Shown here: piece by piece, positions 3,001-51,544 of the stretch
How positions within the stretch are numbered: position 1 is the stretch's first letter
Layout of the letters: the number at the start of each line of letters is the position of its first letter
Assembly (NCBI RefSeq): GCF_004209775.1
Contig: NZ_CP035914.1
Location: 1,116,001 to 1,180,000 of the forward strand
DNA from: Synechococcus sp. WH 8101
Lineage (GTDB): Bacteria > Cyanobacteriota > Cyanobacteriia > PCC-6307 > Cyanobiaceae
Length of the DNA stretch: 64,000 nucleotides
Direction of reading: 5' to 3'
Made by a program: the position numbers and the translations under genes
The notes under the pieces: model-generated
Databases searched by the model: none
Told to the model about the DNA's origin: nothing
The model's input: the letters and a program-made list of their open reading frames with translations, nothing else

Positions 3001-3519
3001 TTGGATCTTCGCCAGCTCATCCGGGACATTCCCGATTTTCCCAAACCCGGAATTCTGTTTCGGGATATCAGCCCCCTGCTGCGGGACCCGGCGGGATGGT
3101 CGGAAGTGATGCGGCGCCTCGGCGATGTGTGCGACCAGTTGCAGCCGGATCTGATCGTGGGGATCGAATCCCGTGGCTTCATCGTGGGCACCGCCCTCGC
3201 CACCGATCGGAAACTGGGTTTCGTGCCGGTGCGCAAGCCGGGCAAACTGCCGGGTGAGGTGATTGCCATCGACTATTCACTGGAATACGGCAGCGATCGC
3301 CTCGAAATGCATGCCGATGCCCTGCGGGACGGGGCACGGGTGTTGATCGTGGATGACCTGCTCGCCACCGGCGGCACGGCCAGCGCCACCGCCAGCCTGG
3401 TGCAACAGGCCGGGGGCCAGTTGGTGGGCTGCGGCTTCGTTGTGGAACTGGCCGGTCTGGATGGACGCCGTCGCCTCCCCGATGAGACCCCGGTGGAATC
3501 CCTGATCATTTACAGCTGA
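3001..3519 (+). CDS. apt: Adenine phosphoribosyltransferase
   Basis: The enzyme converts adenine and PRPP to AMP and pyrophosphate in purine salvage, in the cytosol. Diagnostic features are the N-terminal [21 protein letters not shown], the ESRGF segment and the PRPP-binding loop [13 protein letters not shown]. The TTG at 3001 gives 172 residues beginning [11 protein letters not shown], the usual family length. ATG codons at 2956, 2965 and 2968 would add a short unconserved extension that runs into the divergent DUF3038 start. The 3' end overlaps the convergent DUF2949 gene by ten bases. Confidence 0.93.
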
Positions 3520-31031: not shown

Positions 31032-31211
31032 CGGGGATTTGTGCTGGGATTCAGTGGCTTTGGTAACGGCGCGAACGCCACGGTGGTTGACGCCGGGTCT
31101 AAGAAGGGGATGTAGCAACAGCTACCAAGCGTTCACTCCACCACTTGCGTGGAGCGCAGTTCGATCCAGGCCAAGGAACGGGGACCTGGACTTGCTCCGA
31201 GGAACTGAATC

Positions 31212-44929: not shown

Positions 44930-45025
44930 TGCAGTCCGTGCCCTGGCAAAGGTCAGCGTGACGAACGCATGACTCCAGCGGTGGTGCTTAGCGTTCGCAG
45001 GATGTCCGGGTTGGGGGTTGCGGCC

Positions 45026-45265
45026 ATGCCGATCAATAACCCGCTGACCTGGGCGGACTGCCCAGCAGTCGAACGGAATCCCCAGTGCGTCAGTGGGGCC
45101 TGGGTGTTTCGTGGGACCCGAATTCCGGTGGCGGCTCTGTTTCAGAACCTGGAGGACGGTGTATCTCTGGCTGAATTCGTGGAGTTCTTCCCGGGGGTCA
45201 CGATCGAGCAGGCCCGAGAAGTGCTTGGGCACGCGGCGAGAAGCACCGCTATGGATCAGGCCTGA
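45026..45265 (+). CDS. DUF433-family antitoxin
   Basis: From the ATG at 45026 the 79-residue protein has the DUF433 pattern: CVSGAWVFRGTRIPVAALFQ, then LEDGVSLAEFVEFFPGVTIE and QAREVLGHAARS. These act as antitoxins to PIN-like toxins, with an HTH that binds DNA. It overlaps the toxin gene by one base (TGATG). An upstream ATG at 44969 is a less likely start. Confidence 0.8.
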   Translation: MPINNPLTWADCPAVERNPQCVSGAWVFRGTRIPVAALFQNLEDGVSLAEFVEFFPGVTIEQAREVLGHAARSTAMDQA

Positions 45266-45585
45266 TGCGGATCCTGCTTGATCCAGGCACCCCGGAGCTC
45301 TTGCGGCGCTGGTTGATCAACCATGAGGTGAGCACCGCCGCAGAAGAGGGCTGGACAAGCGCCAGCAGTCTGGACCTGATCCAGCTGGCGCAACAGCGGG
45401 GCTTTGAGGTGCTCATCAGCACCGATGTGAGCCTGAAACATCACCCGAACCTGCAGCGTCCAGCGATCGCGATCCTGGTGCTCTCCACTGGTGAATGGGG
45501 CCGAGTGGGTGTGATCGCAGACAACGTCGCCGATGTGGTGGATGCCTTGCGCCCCGGCGAGTACTGCGAGATGACCATCCCCTGA
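45265..45585 (+). CDS. DUF5615 PIN-like toxin
   Basis: The 106-residue protein has RILLDPGTPELLRRWLINHE, then LDLIQLAQQRGFEVLISTDV and IAILVLSTGEWGRV. The conserved acidic pattern (D in LLDPGTP, D in STDV) marks the PIN-like ribonuclease fold. It pairs with the DUF433 gene as a probable toxin-antitoxin system. Confidence 0.8.
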   Translation: MRILLDPGTPELLRRWLINHEVSTAAEEGWTSASSLDLIQLAQQRGFEVLISTDVSLKHHPNLQRPAIAILVLSTGEWGRVGVIADNVADVVDALRPGEYCEMTIP

Positions 45586-46196: not shown

Positions 46197-46290
46197 GTGA
46201 TGAGATACGGCTGATTCACAAAATTGGCTTTGTCGGAGCTTTGTGACTGTTGTTACATGTCTGGCAAGTAACGATCGATAGCTTAAGAAG

Positions 46291-46443
46291 GTGTCCACGA
46301 GAGGATTTTTGGGCTTCCTGAGATCATTTTGCTTGTTCGCTGGCATTTCGCTGTTGTCAGCAGCTGGCTTAATCGCAACCGCACATCCTGATCATCAAGA
46401 CCGTGGTCATCACGAGATACAGCACGACCATGAGCACAAGTGA
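46291..46443 (+). CDS. Tiny secreted His-rich peptide, possible metal binder
   Basis: A GTG-initiated frame codes 50 residues: a signal-like N-terminus (FLRSFCLFAGISLLSAAGLI) then a mature part with DHQDRGHHEIQHDHEHK, seven His in 17 residues. A stop codon lies four codons upstream of the GTG; AAGAAG directly precedes the start. It is the first gene inside the repeat-flanked cassette and ends about 70 bases before the guanidine riboswitch. GdmH needs nickel, so a periplasmic nickel (or zinc) chelator is plausible, but this is inference. Confidence 0.55.
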   Translation: MSTRGFLGFLRSFCLFAGISLLSAAGLIATAHPDHQDRGHHEIQHDHEHK

Positions 46444-46510
46444 TCCGCACTGACTCACGAAAACCGTAGTGGTTGGCACTGTTTCCAGGCTGCGTTTAGT
46501 CCACTCTAAT

Positions 46511-46618
46511 AAAGCGGGAGTAATACCTAGGGTTCCGGCTCAATTGAGCGCTGGTCCGAGAGGTATCGGCCGATTTTTTTCGGTTGCACGGAGGGATAAA
46601 AGCCCGGGAGACCGCTTT
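46511..46618 (+). ncRNA. Guanidine-I (ykkC) riboswitch
   Basis: The conserved core is present in order: CTAGGGTTCCG (46528-46538), CTGGTCCGAGAG (46551-46562) and ACGGAGGGATAAAAGCCCGG (46588-46607). The ends form a 7-bp P1 stem: AAAGCGG (46511-46517) with CCGCTTT (46612-46618). The aptamer binds free guanidinium and switches expression on. The gdmH ATG is 20 bases after the stem. No clear intrinsic terminator is seen, so control could be translational or through the P1 region. Confidence 0.92.
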
Positions 46619-46637: not shown

Positions 46638-47828
46638 ATGGCATCTGAAATAGGCGCTGAGAGCGCTTTCGATCGATCGCAGTCAACAGAGGGTCAACGT
46701 GCTCTCGAGAAAGAACATTTTCTCCCTCTTACTGGTTGGCAACAGGAAGTTGATCAAGCTCATCGCTTCGGATTAGAAGCTGCTGAAAGTATTGTTGATC
46801 GCAACATTTCCACGTTCTCCAGAGGTGAACTGCCCCACTTTGCGGGTATCAACACCTTCATGAAGGCGCCCTACATCGAAGATGTGAATCGCGTTGGCGA
46901 GTTCGATGTGGCCATCGTTGGTGTACCCCATGACAGTGGCACCACCTACCGTCCAGGGACCCGTTTTGGCCCGCAGGGAATCCGGCGCATTTCAGCGTTG
47001 TACACGCCCTATAACTACGAGATGGGTGTCGATCTGCGGGAGCAGATCACGCTTTGTGATGTGGGCGATATTTTCACGATTCCAGCCAACAACGAGAAGA
47101 GTTTCGATCAGATTTCGAAGGGCATCGCTCACGTGTTTGCCAGTGGTGCCTTTCCGATCATCCTGGGGGGTGATCACTCGATCGGATTCCCTACAGTCCG
47201 CGGCGTCTGCCGACACCTGGGCGATAAGAAAGTCGGCATCATCCACTTTGACCGTCATGTCGATACCCAGGAGATTGACCTCGATGAGCGGATGCACACC
47301 TGCCCGTGGTTCCACGCCACGAACATGGCCAATGCACCGGCCAAGAACCTTGTGCAGCTAGGAATCGGCGGATGGCAGGTGCCCCGTGAAGGGGTGAAGG
47401 TCTGCCGCGAGCGCGGTACCAATGTTCTTACGGTGACTGACATCACCGAGATGGGTCTCGAGGCTGCTGCCCAGATTGCGATTGAGCGCGCTACCGACGG
47501 CACGGATTGCGTTTACATATCATTCGACATCGATTGCATCGATGCTGGATTTGTTCCGGGTACCGGTTGGCCAGAGCCTGGTGGTTTGTTGCCCCGTGAG
47601 GCCCTGAAGCTTCTCGAGCTGATTGTGCGCAATGTGCCGGTGTGCGGTCTTGAAATTGTGGAGGTATCTCCGCCTTACGACATCAGTGATATGACATCAC
47701 TCATGGCCACACGTGTGATCTGCGACACGATGGCTCATCTAGTCGTGAGCGATCAATTACCGCGCAAGGAAAAGCCCAGCTGGATCAGTGATGTCTGCAA
47801 CATGAATGTGGATCAGAAGTGGAGGTAA
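46638..47828 (+). CDS. gdmH: Ni-dependent guanidine hydrolase
   Basis: The ureohydrolase-fold enzyme hydrolyses guanidine to ammonium and urea. Its 396 residues and sequence resemble the Synechocystis Sll1077 type, not ordinary agmatinase. Metal-binding motifs are ILGGDHSIGFPTV, IIHFDRHVDTQE and SFDIDCIDAGFVPGTGWPEP. Guanidine hydrolases have a long N-terminal extension, seen here (about 1-60, HFLPLTGWQQEVDQAHRFGL). A guanidine riboswitch lies upstream and nickel-chaperone genes downstream, both strong support. The ATG at 46638 is used; an upstream TTG at 46584 lies inside the riboswitch. Confidence 0.93.
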   Translation: MASEIGAESAFDRSQSTEGQRALEKEHFLPLTGWQQEVDQAHRFGLEAAESIVDRNISTFSRGELPHFAGINTFMKAPYIEDVNRVGEFDVAIVGVPHDSGTTYRPGTRFGPQGIRRISALYTPYNYEMGVDLREQITLCDVGDIFTIPANNEKSFDQISKGIAHVFASGAFPIILGGDHSIGFPTVRGVCRHLGDKKVGIIHFDRHVDTQEIDLDERMHTCPWFHATNMANAPAKNLVQLGIGGWQVPREGVKVCRERGTNVLTVTDITEMGLEAAAQIAIERATDGTDCVYISFDIDCIDAGFVPGTGWPEPGGLLPREALKLLELIVRNVPVCGLEIVEVSPPYDISDMTSLMATRVICDTMAHLVVSDQLPRKEKPSWISDVCNMNVDQKWR

Positions 47829-47831
47829 GTC

Positions 47832-48212
47832 ATGCATGAAGTCGACATGACGAAATGTTTAGTGCTTTCGATGAATGAATGGCGTCAGCAGCACGATCCG
47901 GATGTTCCGAGTGTCACTCGGGTCAACTTACAAGTCGGTCAATTTACATGTGTGGAGCCAAAACAGCTTGAATTGACTTGGCGTGTTGCCATTTCCAATA
48001 GTTGGCTTGAAGGCGCAGAACTGTCTATTGAGGAAATTCCATTAGTTGCGCGTTGCATTTGTTGCCATAAAACCTACTCCCCAGCTGTTGATAATGCTTA
48101 TAAGTCTCCTTGTTGCGAGCATCCGATGGAGGATATAGTTGCTGGTCGTGAACTACGGATAAAATCTGTTGATTTTAGCTTTACCCCCGAACCTTCCACT
48201 TTGCCTGCTTGA
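47832..48212 (+). CDS. ghaA: HypA-like nickel chaperone for guanidine hydrolase
   Basis: The 126-residue HypA homologue has the nickel-binding N-terminus [10 protein letters not shown] and a zinc site with paired Cys ([19 protein letters not shown]). It is not near hydrogenase genes but three bases after gdmH, so it should load nickel into GdmH together with GhaB. Its stop overlaps the next start by four bases (ATGA). The cassette becomes more A+T-rich from here on. Confidence 0.9.
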
Positions 48213-48919
48213 TCATGCACATGCCACTTAATGACACATTAGGTCTGAATCTGCTTAGCGCTAACATCCATCAGGCTGAGCACAATCGTGAGTCTTTTGA
48301 CGCATGGGAGTTGCTTTGTCTCAATGTCATGAGCAGCCCGGGAGCAGGTAAGACATCGCTTCTTGAGAAATCACTCTCGATGCTTTCACCAGAGCTGTCA
48401 ATGGCTGTTCTTGAGGGGGATATGACAACTCAGCTTGATGCCCAACGTCTAGAAGCTATTGGTGTGCCAGTTGTGCCAATCACTACTGGCCGCTCTTGTC
48501 ATCTCGATGCCTCTATGGTGAATGGAGGTTTAAAGCTACTTTGCGAGAGGCTCAAACCCACAGAGCTTGATATTTTGTGGGTCGAGAATGTCGGGAATCT
48601 TGTGTGCCCAGCTGAGTTTGAGGTTGGCGAGCATCGAAAAGTGGCGCTTCTCAGCGTTACTGAAGGTGACGATAAACCACTTAAGTACCCAATTATGTTT
48701 CGACAGGCTGACGTGGTTCTCATTACAAAGGTGGATTTGCTTCCACATCTTCCTGTTAATGTCAATGCATTTCGTCAAAATATTCTCAATATAAATCCCC
48801 ACGCAACCGTCATTGAAGTGTCAGCGCTTAGTGGCGAGGGTCTTGAGGAGTGGCACCAATGGCTTCGCCAAGCTTTATCAAGCCATTCAGCAAAGGTTTC
48901 TGCTCTGGCTCCTGCTTGA
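48209..48919 (+). CDS. ghaB: HypB-like nickel-insertion GTPase for guanidine hydrolase
   Basis: The 236-residue G3E GTPase has Walker [17 protein letters not shown], switch region [15 protein letters not shown], the nickel/zinc CH pair in [13 protein letters not shown], and specificity [14 protein letters not shown] hydrolysis drives metal transfer from GhaA to the client. The His-rich tail or CxxCGC motif of some HypB proteins is absent. It is part of the same operon. Confidence 0.92.
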
Positions 48920-48956: not shown

Positions 48957-49958
48957 ATGACTAAACAACTGCGCAATCTTCTTTTTGCAGGTCTTTCCAT
49001 TGTACTTGCAGTGGCTTGTTCCAGACCATCCGTTCCAACTTCAGGTGGCACTCCAATCGTCTTGGGTTACAGCAACTGGGCTGGATGGTGGCCATGGGCT
49101 ATTGCGGTAGAGGAGAAAATGTTTGAAAAGAATGGTGTCAATGTCGAAATGAAGTGGTTTGATGGCTATGTGCAATCGATGGAAACCTTCGCTGCTGGGA
49201 AAATCGATGGCAACTCTCAGACTCTTAACGACACAATCTCCTTTCTTCCAGGAGAAAATGGTGGAGAGGTAGTTGTCCTTGTTAATGACAATTCATCCGG
49301 TAATGATCAGATCATTGCTGACTCGTCAATTAAGACAGTTTCTGATTTGAAAGGCAAAACTGTCGCCGTCGAGGAAGGAGTTGTCGATGATTACTTATTA
49401 AGCCTCGCACTTAGGGACGCTGGCATGAATCGTAACGATGTAATCATTAAAGGTATGCCTACCGATCAGGCTGCTACAGCCTTTGCTGCTGGCCAAGTTG
49501 ATGCCGTTGGAGCATTTCCCCCTTATACCGGTACGGCAATGCAACGCCCGGGAGCGCGAGTGATTGCCACTTCCAAGGAATTTCCTGGTGCTATTCCTGA
49601 TCTTCTTACTGTGAGCGGAGATCTTATCAAAGAACGGCCTGATGATGTGCAGAAGATTGTCGACACATGGTGGGATGTTCGCGAATTTATGGTTAAAAAT
49701 CCCAAAAAAGCAGAAGCAATTATGGCCAAGCGAGCTGGCATCCCTACTCAAGAATATGAACAATACAAAAATGGAACACGTTTCTTTTCAATCAAAGATA
49801 ACCTTGAAGCATTCAGTCCTGGTCAAGGTATGCAGCACATGCCTTATGCCGCTGAATCAATGGCTGACTTCATGGTTTCTGTCGGCTTCATTCCTGAAAA
49901 GCCTGACATGAGTAACCTTTTTGACGATAGCTTTGTCGAGAAATCGGCTGCATCCTGA
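48957..49958 (+). CDS. ABC importer substrate-binding lipoprotein (NMT1/SsuA type)
   Basis: The 333-residue protein from the ATG at 48957 has a lipoprotein signal (FAGLSIVLAVACSRPS) and a NMT1/THI5-like periplasmic domain: LGYSNWAGWWPWAIAVEEKM, then KTVAVEEGVVDDYLLSLALR and FAAGQVDAVGAFPPYTG. Aromatic residues (WAGWWPW) could cup a cation. Synechocystis has a like-placed importer after its gdmH-ghaAB genes. Substrate is likely guanidine or a derivative. Its stop overlaps the permease start. Confidence 0.85.
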   Translation: MTKQLRNLLFAGLSIVLAVACSRPSVPTSGGTPIVLGYSNWAGWWPWAIAVEEKMFEKNGVNVEMKWFDGYVQSMETFAAGKIDGNSQTLNDTISFLPGENGGEVVVLVNDNSSGNDQIIADSSIKTVSDLKGKTVAVEEGVVDDYLLSLALRDAGMNRNDVIIKGMPTDQAATAFAAGQVDAVGAFPPYTGTAMQRPGARVIATSKEFPGAIPDLLTVSGDLIKERPDDVQKIVDTWWDVREFMVKNPKKAEAIMAKRAGIPTQEYEQYKNGTRFFSIKDNLEAFSPGQGMQHMPYAAESMADFMVSVGFIPEKPDMSNLFDDSFVEKSAAS

Positions 49959-50785
49959 TGACTGTCACGACCACCGTTGGTACTAAGGGGAGAAACATCA
50001 AGTTTCTCTCCATTTTCCAACTGGGTGTTATGCCATCCAAGACCGTTCGTGGCGGTCTGCAGGTGACATCTCTTCTCGTTCCATTCCTCTTCTGGGTCGC
50101 CATAGCTTCTTTCGATTTGGTGGATGCGAAGTTCCTGCCTTCTCCTCAGGCTGTCTTTCGTTCCCTTCTCTCCATGGCTCAGAGTGGTGTTCTTTTCCAA
50201 GACATAGTGGCCAGCACTGGTCGTGTCTTTGTTGGATTTTTTCTAGCAACACTACTTGCTGTTCCGATTGGTATTTATATGGGTGTTTATCCAGCATTCT
50301 GTTCATTATTAGAGCCACTAATTGCCATGCTAAGGTACATGCCCGCCGCAGCATTTATTCCACTCCTCATTATCTATTTGGGCATCGGTGAGGAGCCAAA
50401 GATAGCACTTATCTTTATAGGGACGCTTTATTTTAATATTTTGATGGTAATGGATGCCGTTAAATTTGTCCCAAAAGAGCTTATTGAGACAACGCTTACA
50501 CTAGGAGGTCGTAGTCGTCATATTTTGGTTCAAGTAGTCGCCCGCTACAGTTTGCCGAATATCATTGATACACTTAGGATTAATATTGCCACCTCCTGGA
50601 ATTTGGTTGTTGTTGCTGAACTGGTAGCGGCTGAGGTTGGTCTTGGCAAACGCATCCAATTGGCGCAGAGATTCTTTCGTACGGATCAGATTTTTGCTGA
50701 GCTTATTGTTCTTGGCCTCATTGGTTTTGCTATCGACATGGGATTTAGGATTTTACTCCGTGTCAGCTGTAAATGGGCTGTTTGA
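49958..50785 (+). CDS. ABC importer permease
   Basis: The 275-residue SsuC/TauC-type permease has about six membrane segments and the ATPase-contact loop around ETTLTLGGRSRHILVQVVAR (EAA motif). Helices include LLVPFLFWVAIASFDLV and IAMLRYMPAAAFIPLLIIYL. It overlaps the binding-protein gene by one base and is followed after three bases by the ATPase gene. Confidence 0.88.
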   Translation: MTVTTTVGTKGRNIKFLSIFQLGVMPSKTVRGGLQVTSLLVPFLFWVAIASFDLVDAKFLPSPQAVFRSLLSMAQSGVLFQDIVASTGRVFVGFFLATLLAVPIGIYMGVYPAFCSLLEPLIAMLRYMPAAAFIPLLIIYLGIGEEPKIALIFIGTLYFNILMVMDAVKFVPKELIETTLTLGGRSRHILVQVVARYSLPNIIDTLRINIATSWNLVVVAELVAAEVGLGKRIQLAQRFFRTDQIFAELIVLGLIGFAIDMGFRILLRVSCKWAV

Positions 50786-50788
50786 ACA

Positions 50789-51544
50789 ATGGAACTTCGA
50801 GCTACAAATCTCTCTAAGCGATTTGGAGATAAATTGGTTCTCGATCAACTCACATTTTCGATTGACTCAGGTGAGTTTATAACATTCGTTGGCAGTTCTG
50901 GGTCAGGAAAAAGCACGATCTTGCGCCTGGTTGCTGGGCTTGATCATCCGAGTGATGGCTTCCTTTCTGTAGATGGTTCGCCTATACAGGGACCTAGCCC
51001 AGACCGAGGAATGGTTTTCCAAAAATACAGTCTTTTCCCGTGGCTTACTGCCGCTGAAAATGTTGCCTTTGGCATGAAATTGCAAAATTTAGATCAAAGG
51101 GAGATTAAAGATCGAACTTCATACTTCCTTGAGGTTGTTGGTCTCTCGGATTCTGGTTCTAAATTGCCTCGCGAACTTTCTGGAGGCATGCAACAGAGAA
51201 TTGCTATTGCACGGTCACTCGCAACTAACCCGAGGCTCTTGCTTCTAGACGAACCCTTCGGGGCATTGGATTTGCAGATTCGAGAATCTATGCAAGATTT
51301 TCTTCTTAGCCTTTGGAGAACTACAGGTTTGACGGTATTGCTTATTACCCATGATGTTGAAGAAGCTCTTGTATTATCCCAATGTATTCATGTTCTTGCT
51401 CCTAATCCTGGGCGTATCATCCGTTCATTGCATGTTGATTTGGATAAGAGTGACCTCGATCAACTCCGTATGAGCAGTACTTTTCTAGCTATGCGACGCT
51501 CTCTTTCATCCACAATGCGGGAGTTGGAGCCGACATTATGCTGA
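50789..51544 (+). CDS. ABC importer ATPase
   Basis: A 251-residue SsuB/TauB-type ATPase with Walker A FVGSSGSGKSTILRLV, Q-loop VFQKYSLFPWLTAAEN, signature ELSGGMQQRIAIARSL, Walker B LLLLDEPFGALD and switch His in LITHDVEEAL. All catalytic residues are present. It overlaps the Rieske gene by seven bases, so the oxygenase is made together with the importer. Confidence 0.9.
   Translation: MELRATNLSKRFGDKLVLDQLTFSIDSGEFITFVGSSGSGKSTILRLVAGLDHPSDGFLSVDGSPIQGPSPDRGMVFQKYSLFPWLTAAENVAFGMKLQNLDQREIKDRTSYFLEVVGLSDSGSKLPRELSGGMQQRIAIARSLATNPRLLLLDEPFGALDLQIRESMQDFLLSLWRTTGLTVLLITHDVEEALVLSQCIHVLAPNPGRIIRSLHVDLDKSDLDQLRMSSTFLAMRRSLSSTMRELEPTLC

Follow-up and report, generated by a model that had tools for sequence, protein, structure and literature searches.

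The short reading frame and its setting

Between positions 46291 and 46443 (+) of the window, by which we mean the whole 64-kb stretch of DNA analysed here, there is a short open reading frame with the translation VSTRGFLGFLRSFCLFAGISLLSAAGLIATAHPDHQDRGHHEIQHDHEHK*, lying just ahead of a riboswitch and the genes for a nickel enzyme and its chaperones. The question that it raises is whether it is a gene at all, and if so what its product might do. The original prediction described a signal-like segment followed by a tail with seven His in 17 residues. Both the segment and the His-rich tail are present in the translated sequence, and the count of seven His is right, but the stretch that holds them is 18-19 residues long, the tail HPDHQDRGHHEIQHDHEH having 7 His in 18 residues. 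Six further stop-to-stop frames in the 64-kb window reach at least 7 His in 17, and no such frame is found in 60 dinucleotide shuffles; taken alone, His density is weak evidence for a gene.

The window comes from a picocyanobacterial genome of 2.63 Mb. Downstream of the frame, all on the forward strand, are a guanidine-I riboswitch aptamer (46516..46612; Rfam RF00442, 81 bits), a homologue of the Ni-dependent guanidine hydrolase gdmH with an arginase fold (46638..47828; Pfam Arginase, 263 bits; named from its position in the cassette and the literature), a hypA-type nickel chaperone, GhaA (47832..48212; Pfam HypA), and a hypB-type GTPase, GhaB (48209..48919; Pfam cobW). GhaB probably starts at ATG 48215 and not at TTG 48209, the N-terminus MHMPL being kept in relatives. 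There follow the substrate-binding protein, permease and ATPase of an ABC importer (48957..51544, +; Pfam NMT1_2, BPD_transp_1 and ABC_tran), and the cassette also has a Rieske protein downstream. The G+C content is 0.45-0.54 in the cassette and 0.47 in the peptide region, compared with 0.63 over positions 1-40000 of the window, and by composition the peptide region therefore belongs with the cassette.

A peptide family upstream of gdmH

Conserved frames were sought in the DNA upstream of 132 gdmH loci, taken from genomes of the family and named contigs. The search that had been proposed, for His-tailed frames in front of gdmH in other cyanobacteria, turned up nine further distinct relatives, giving ten distinct members with the window. 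The idea would have fallen had neither the frame nor its His residues been conserved in related cassettes; both are kept in ten genomes. At least two members come from cultured strains, Vulcanococcus limneticus LL and Synechococcus sp. HJ21-Hayes. All ten have the same layout, consisting of a hydrophobic N-terminal segment, an A-x-A-type cleavage motif, an invariant HPDH and a His/Gln-rich tail. In the two family alignments AHPDH is invariant, QPTQQG is frequent, and the tail is of the HDHxH type.

The substitutions have the pattern of a coding sequence, with third codon positions taking 86 of 176 in four disjoint pairs (p = 1.5e-5). In the three closest pairs of members dN/dS is about 0.36, 0.45 and 0.52, all below 1, and in the mature part of one pair (L051/L091) pN is 0.021 and pS 0.444; the pairs are short and depend on the alignment, which makes these figures guides. 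The nine relatives at the same place, the third-position excess and the conserved promoter pattern described below raise the frame above chance, and we are nearly certain that 46309-46443 is a real gene. It belongs to a real, new family of small, predicted exported peptides of picocyanobacteria.

Searches with the single sequence (plasmids, genus, genome and viral contigs) gave chance matches alone, and the family has no match at a meaningful E-value in Pfam, NCBIfam or the PDB. When 21 gdmH loci were screened for frames rich in His, the window had the only one of this kind; the set did not include the nearest carriers. The suggestion that the peptide derives from the N-terminus of HupE was ruled out, the mature ends of HupE beginning AHHP or AHGE/AHVE. 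Separately, one of 16 Prochlorococcus loci scanned (L150, about 3100-3250, +) encodes a PsbN-like protein (Pfam PsbN, 26 bits) whose C-terminal tail is rich in His.

Distribution

A profile of the family, run against 400 genomes of the taxonomic family, gave ten strong matches, all among the 125 genomes that have gdmH and each directly upstream of gdmH; one metagenome-assembled genome has the gene at two contig ends, where the tail is the same. Weaker matches (E > 1e-5) were chance-like in those examined. Searches through the genus and through 390 genomes of the wider class yielded no further members, with one extra match (G248, E = 8e-4). The peptide is thus an accessory gene of the picocyanobacterial gdmH cassette, found directly upstream of the riboswitch and gdmH and nowhere else in the genomes searched. 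It is not a core gene, being present in 10 of about 125 gdmH-bearing genomes. Since about 115 of these (about 90%) are without it, the peptide is dispensable for GdmH, and is at best an aid to it.

On a tree of 98 gdmH proteins the carriers cluster but are patchy, with at least 6 changes required compared with 9.7 in shuffles. Support on this tree is weak, and a single origin followed by losses is possible. One locus (L083/L060, from genome G145) has no peptide frame but keeps a perfect NtcA-type promoter, GTAACGGTCGCTAC-N22-TACGGT, at the place expected for that of the peptide gene, some 160 nt ahead of the aptamer; judged by this sequence, it probably lost its peptide gene. Among the loci compared, one contig (L087) from a metagenome-assembled genome assigned to Acidiferrobacteraceae has a gdmH with 92% identity to the picocyanobacterial copy in the window, and is probably mis-binned.

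Predicted promoter and likely start codon

Upstream of the peptide gene is an NtcA-like site, GTGACTGTTGTTAC (46243..46256, +), followed by a -10 box TAGCTT, of the form TAN3T (46279..46284, +), which predicts a transcription start near 46291. We call this predicted promoter P1. Its layout matches that of the canonical NtcA-activated promoter (PMC3898017), a class II arrangement in which GTAN8TAC, or at least GTN10AC, stands at the canonical spacing from TAN3T. In all ten members GT-N10-AC lies exactly 22 nt ahead of TAN3T, and in nine of them 5 of the 6 bases of the site core are matched. The pattern was first noticed by reading and scored afterwards; the summed score is 79, against 51.7 (sd 2.0) for shuffled sequences, a contrast that is inflated by the kinship of the sequences. 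The full pattern of site, 22-nt spacer and -10 box occurs once in the 64 kb, on either strand, at 46243-46284. Of 90 loci that lack the peptide, 3 have such a pattern in the same region, two of the three being from one genome, that of L083/L060 described above. From its upstream sequence, the peptide gene looks like a nitrogen-controlled unit of its own, apparently turned on when nitrogen is short. Such control fits a role in nitrogen scavenging.

The position of P1 also bears on the start codon. GTG 46291, the first codon of the frame as first described, coincides with the predicted transcription start and would be nearly leaderless, so that TTG 46309 is the likelier start. A possible ribosome-binding site, AGAGGA (46300..46305, +), lies at short spacing ahead of it, and the closest relative has a TTG at the aligned position; in the relative L074 the sequence at this place is AGGAAG-CTC-TTG. 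The gene kept in ten genomes therefore likely runs from 46309 to 46443 (+), encoding 44 residues, MGFLRSFCLFAGISLLSAAGLIATA|HPDHQDRGHHEIQHDHEHK, and several members of the family seem, from their sequences, to use a TTG start.

Between the peptide gene and the riboswitch there is a second NtcA-like site, P2, GTAGTGGTTGGCAC (46466..46479, +), conserved at a fixed distance, with a weak -10-like box, CACTCT (46502..46507, +), 22 nt past it; in relatives this box is mostly N-A-N3-T. Almost every picocyanobacterial gdmH locus keeps P2, whether or not it has the peptide, and the end of its -10 box lies about 16-21 nt from the aptamer core across loci. This placement implies that gdmH is probably transcribed separately, leaving the peptide outside riboswitch control. 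It also suggests that gdmH may be under NtcA as well as guanidine control. Ammonium is reported to repress the GdmH operon of Synechocystis (PMC10094980). The DNA from the peptide gene to gdmH has no terminator-like site, and read-through from P1 into the riboswitch is therefore possible. The original placing of the frame inside the cassette is thus half right: it is locked to the gdmH cassette, but with its own NtcA-type promoter it lies outside the riboswitch operon. Being outside guanidine control, the peptide would be made without guanidine.

Predicted export signal and mature peptide

Inspection and Kyte-Doolittle analysis place a predicted signal peptide at 46309..46383 (+), ending in ATA, an A-x-A-type cleavage motif. 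The layout is that of Sec export, with a basic n-region, a hydrophobic core and an A-x-A-type site. All ten members have 1-4 Lys/Arg near the N-terminus, a hydrophobic core with a maximum KD14 of 1.76-2.74, and x-x-A ahead of HPDH, a small residue-x-Ala preceding the mature part throughout. It is very probable on these grounds that the peptide is exported.

The predicted mature peptide of the window (46384..46440, +), placed from the alignments and composition, has 19 residues and starts with the invariant HPDH; it contains 7 His, 5 Asp/Glu and no Cys. Across the family the mature part has 19-34 residues, with 2-5 Asp/Glu each. With His at its N-terminus and Pro, Asp and His next in line, the peptide could be a chelator of a divalent metal, and this composition makes metal binding probable, with less confidence than we give to export.

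Possible function

Our preferred explanation, which we hold tentatively, is that this is an NtcA-driven His-rich peptide, exported to bind metal in the periplasm, where it most likely holds nickel for GdmH and urease. Nitrogen shortage would activate P1 through NtcA, leading to transcription of 46309-46443. Cleavage after A-x-A would release a mature peptide of 19-34 residues, probably unfolded, with His-Pro-Asp-His at its start and an HDHxH-type end. This would bind a divalent metal in the periplasm, most likely holding or concentrating nickel outside the inner membrane for HupE-type uptake, and the nickel would serve both the adjacent GdmH and urease, the enzyme that breaks down the urea produced by GdmH. 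Export, cleavage, NtcA control in the cell and metal binding are steps that we infer from sequence; the choice of nickel as the metal, and its use by GdmH, are speculative.

Nickel is favoured by the neighbouring genes and by the nitrogen control, GdmH and urease both being nickel enzymes of nitrogen scavenging. Collection of nickel for GdmH is plausible, and service to GdmH or urease is a possibility that we rate slightly below the explanation as a whole. Genes for HupE-type importers, assigned by family alone, are present in all 41 genomes examined, CbiM in 1 of 41 and urease in 37 of 41, and all ten carriers lack nickel superoxide dismutase; none of the four usefully separates carriers from non-carriers. 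The His-rich nickel store that some HypB proteins have is absent from the neighbouring GhaB in carriers and non-carriers alike, and the idea that the peptide complements a His-rich HypB was ruled out, no complementarity being seen. The most specific form of the proposal, a nitrogen-regulated nickel collector in which an NtcA-induced exported peptide captures nickel for the guanidine and urea enzymes that release ammonia, is possible but doubtful. If true, it would suggest that metal capture for nickel enzymes is tied to nitrogen starvation, linking nitrogen control directly to metal acquisition, and would put a name to an unannotated exported-peptide family in picocyanobacteria. Peptides this short escape gene callers, and similar ones may be missed beside other metalloenzymes. 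The gene is simple to test, as a single small frame with a single promoter and a neighbouring enzyme of measurable activity.

The strongest alternative, which we consider unlikely but not negligible, is an exported His-rich binder of Cu, Zn or Co, or a guard against metal stress in nitrogen starvation, whose proximity to gdmH reflects joint transfer and NtcA control in common rather than nickel supply. Tails rich in His and Asp bind not just Ni but also Cu, Zn and Co, Cu/Zn binders often have an N-terminal His and H-D-H repeats, and the composition here is not nickel-specific; the patchy occurrence among gdmH genomes and the lack of correlation with nickel genes point the same way. Yet every member is strictly linked to a nickel-enzyme cassette and none was found elsewhere.

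It is improbable that the peptide scavenges nitrogen with no metal role, whether by retaining guanidinium or some other cation close to the binding protein of the ABC importer or as a released antimicrobial. The signal peptide and the nitrogen-starvation promoter pattern would suit such a role, and acidic and aromatic side chains of the tail could contact guanidinium, but His is the conserved feature, Asp/Glu are few in each mature peptide, and the gene is not under riboswitch control.

A regulatory leader for gdmH, either an upstream reading frame or a His-codon attenuator with a functionless product, is very improbable. A short frame rich in His codons does stand upstream of a regulated operon, and P1 transcripts may enter the riboswitch; however, loci that lack the frame keep P2 as well, which makes a separate start for gdmH probable, and the distance between frame and aptamer core ranges from 76 to 194 nt. 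Codons change synonymously, yet the hydrophobic segment, the cleavage motif and HPDH stay the same. In place of the attenuator of a His-operon-type leader, the sequence after the frame has a promoter-like element and no terminator-like site. Finally, the odd start codons, the single-sequence searches without relatives and the lack of a Pfam or NCBIfam match might suggest a chance open frame, a reading contradicted by the conservation, substitution pattern and promoter and scarcely credible.

Comparison with known systems

On our preferred explanation, an exported metal binder, the peptide would work most like the small periplasmic metal binders SmbP or SilE, lying outside both families by sequence, with no Pfam, NCBIfam or PDB match to indicate homology. 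SmbP of Nitrosomonas europaea is a small periplasmic protein of 9.9 kDa that binds Cu(II) and Ni(II) and has a solved, folded four-helix structure (PMC12955753). It comes from a nitrogen-metabolising bacterium, and the peptide, as predicted, would share its small size, periplasmic location and metal binding; in contrast, the mature part here has 19-34 residues and the family profile matches no solved chain. SilE is a disordered periplasmic silver sponge (PMC5008109). It shares with the peptide, as predicted, a small size, export, likely disorder, metal binding and a gene beside the system served. SilE functions in silver resistance and is longer, whereas the context here is nitrogen acquisition and there is no family match.

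HypB with a His-rich N-terminus and Hpn are cytoplasmic nickel stores. They resemble the present case in having a His-rich stretch near genes for nickel-enzyme maturation, but here the His-rich part is a separate peptide, predicted to be exported, and the neighbouring HypB has no store. The NCBIfam model NF040554 (mini_HHHH) likewise describes a very small His-motif protein; membership was rejected, one of ten members matching it, at E = 0.27 only. ZepA is a cyanobacterial exoprotein for zinc uptake (PMC10957091) under the regulator Zur. In role it is similarly an exported cyanobacterial protein that aids metal uptake, with another metal and another regulator.

It is worth adding that the window contains two further features. 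A glutamine-II riboswitch is found at 31127-31190 (Rfam RF01704, 68.7 bits), and at 44969-45585 a DUF433 protein is followed directly by a 106-residue frame, in a layout like that of a toxin-antitoxin pair.
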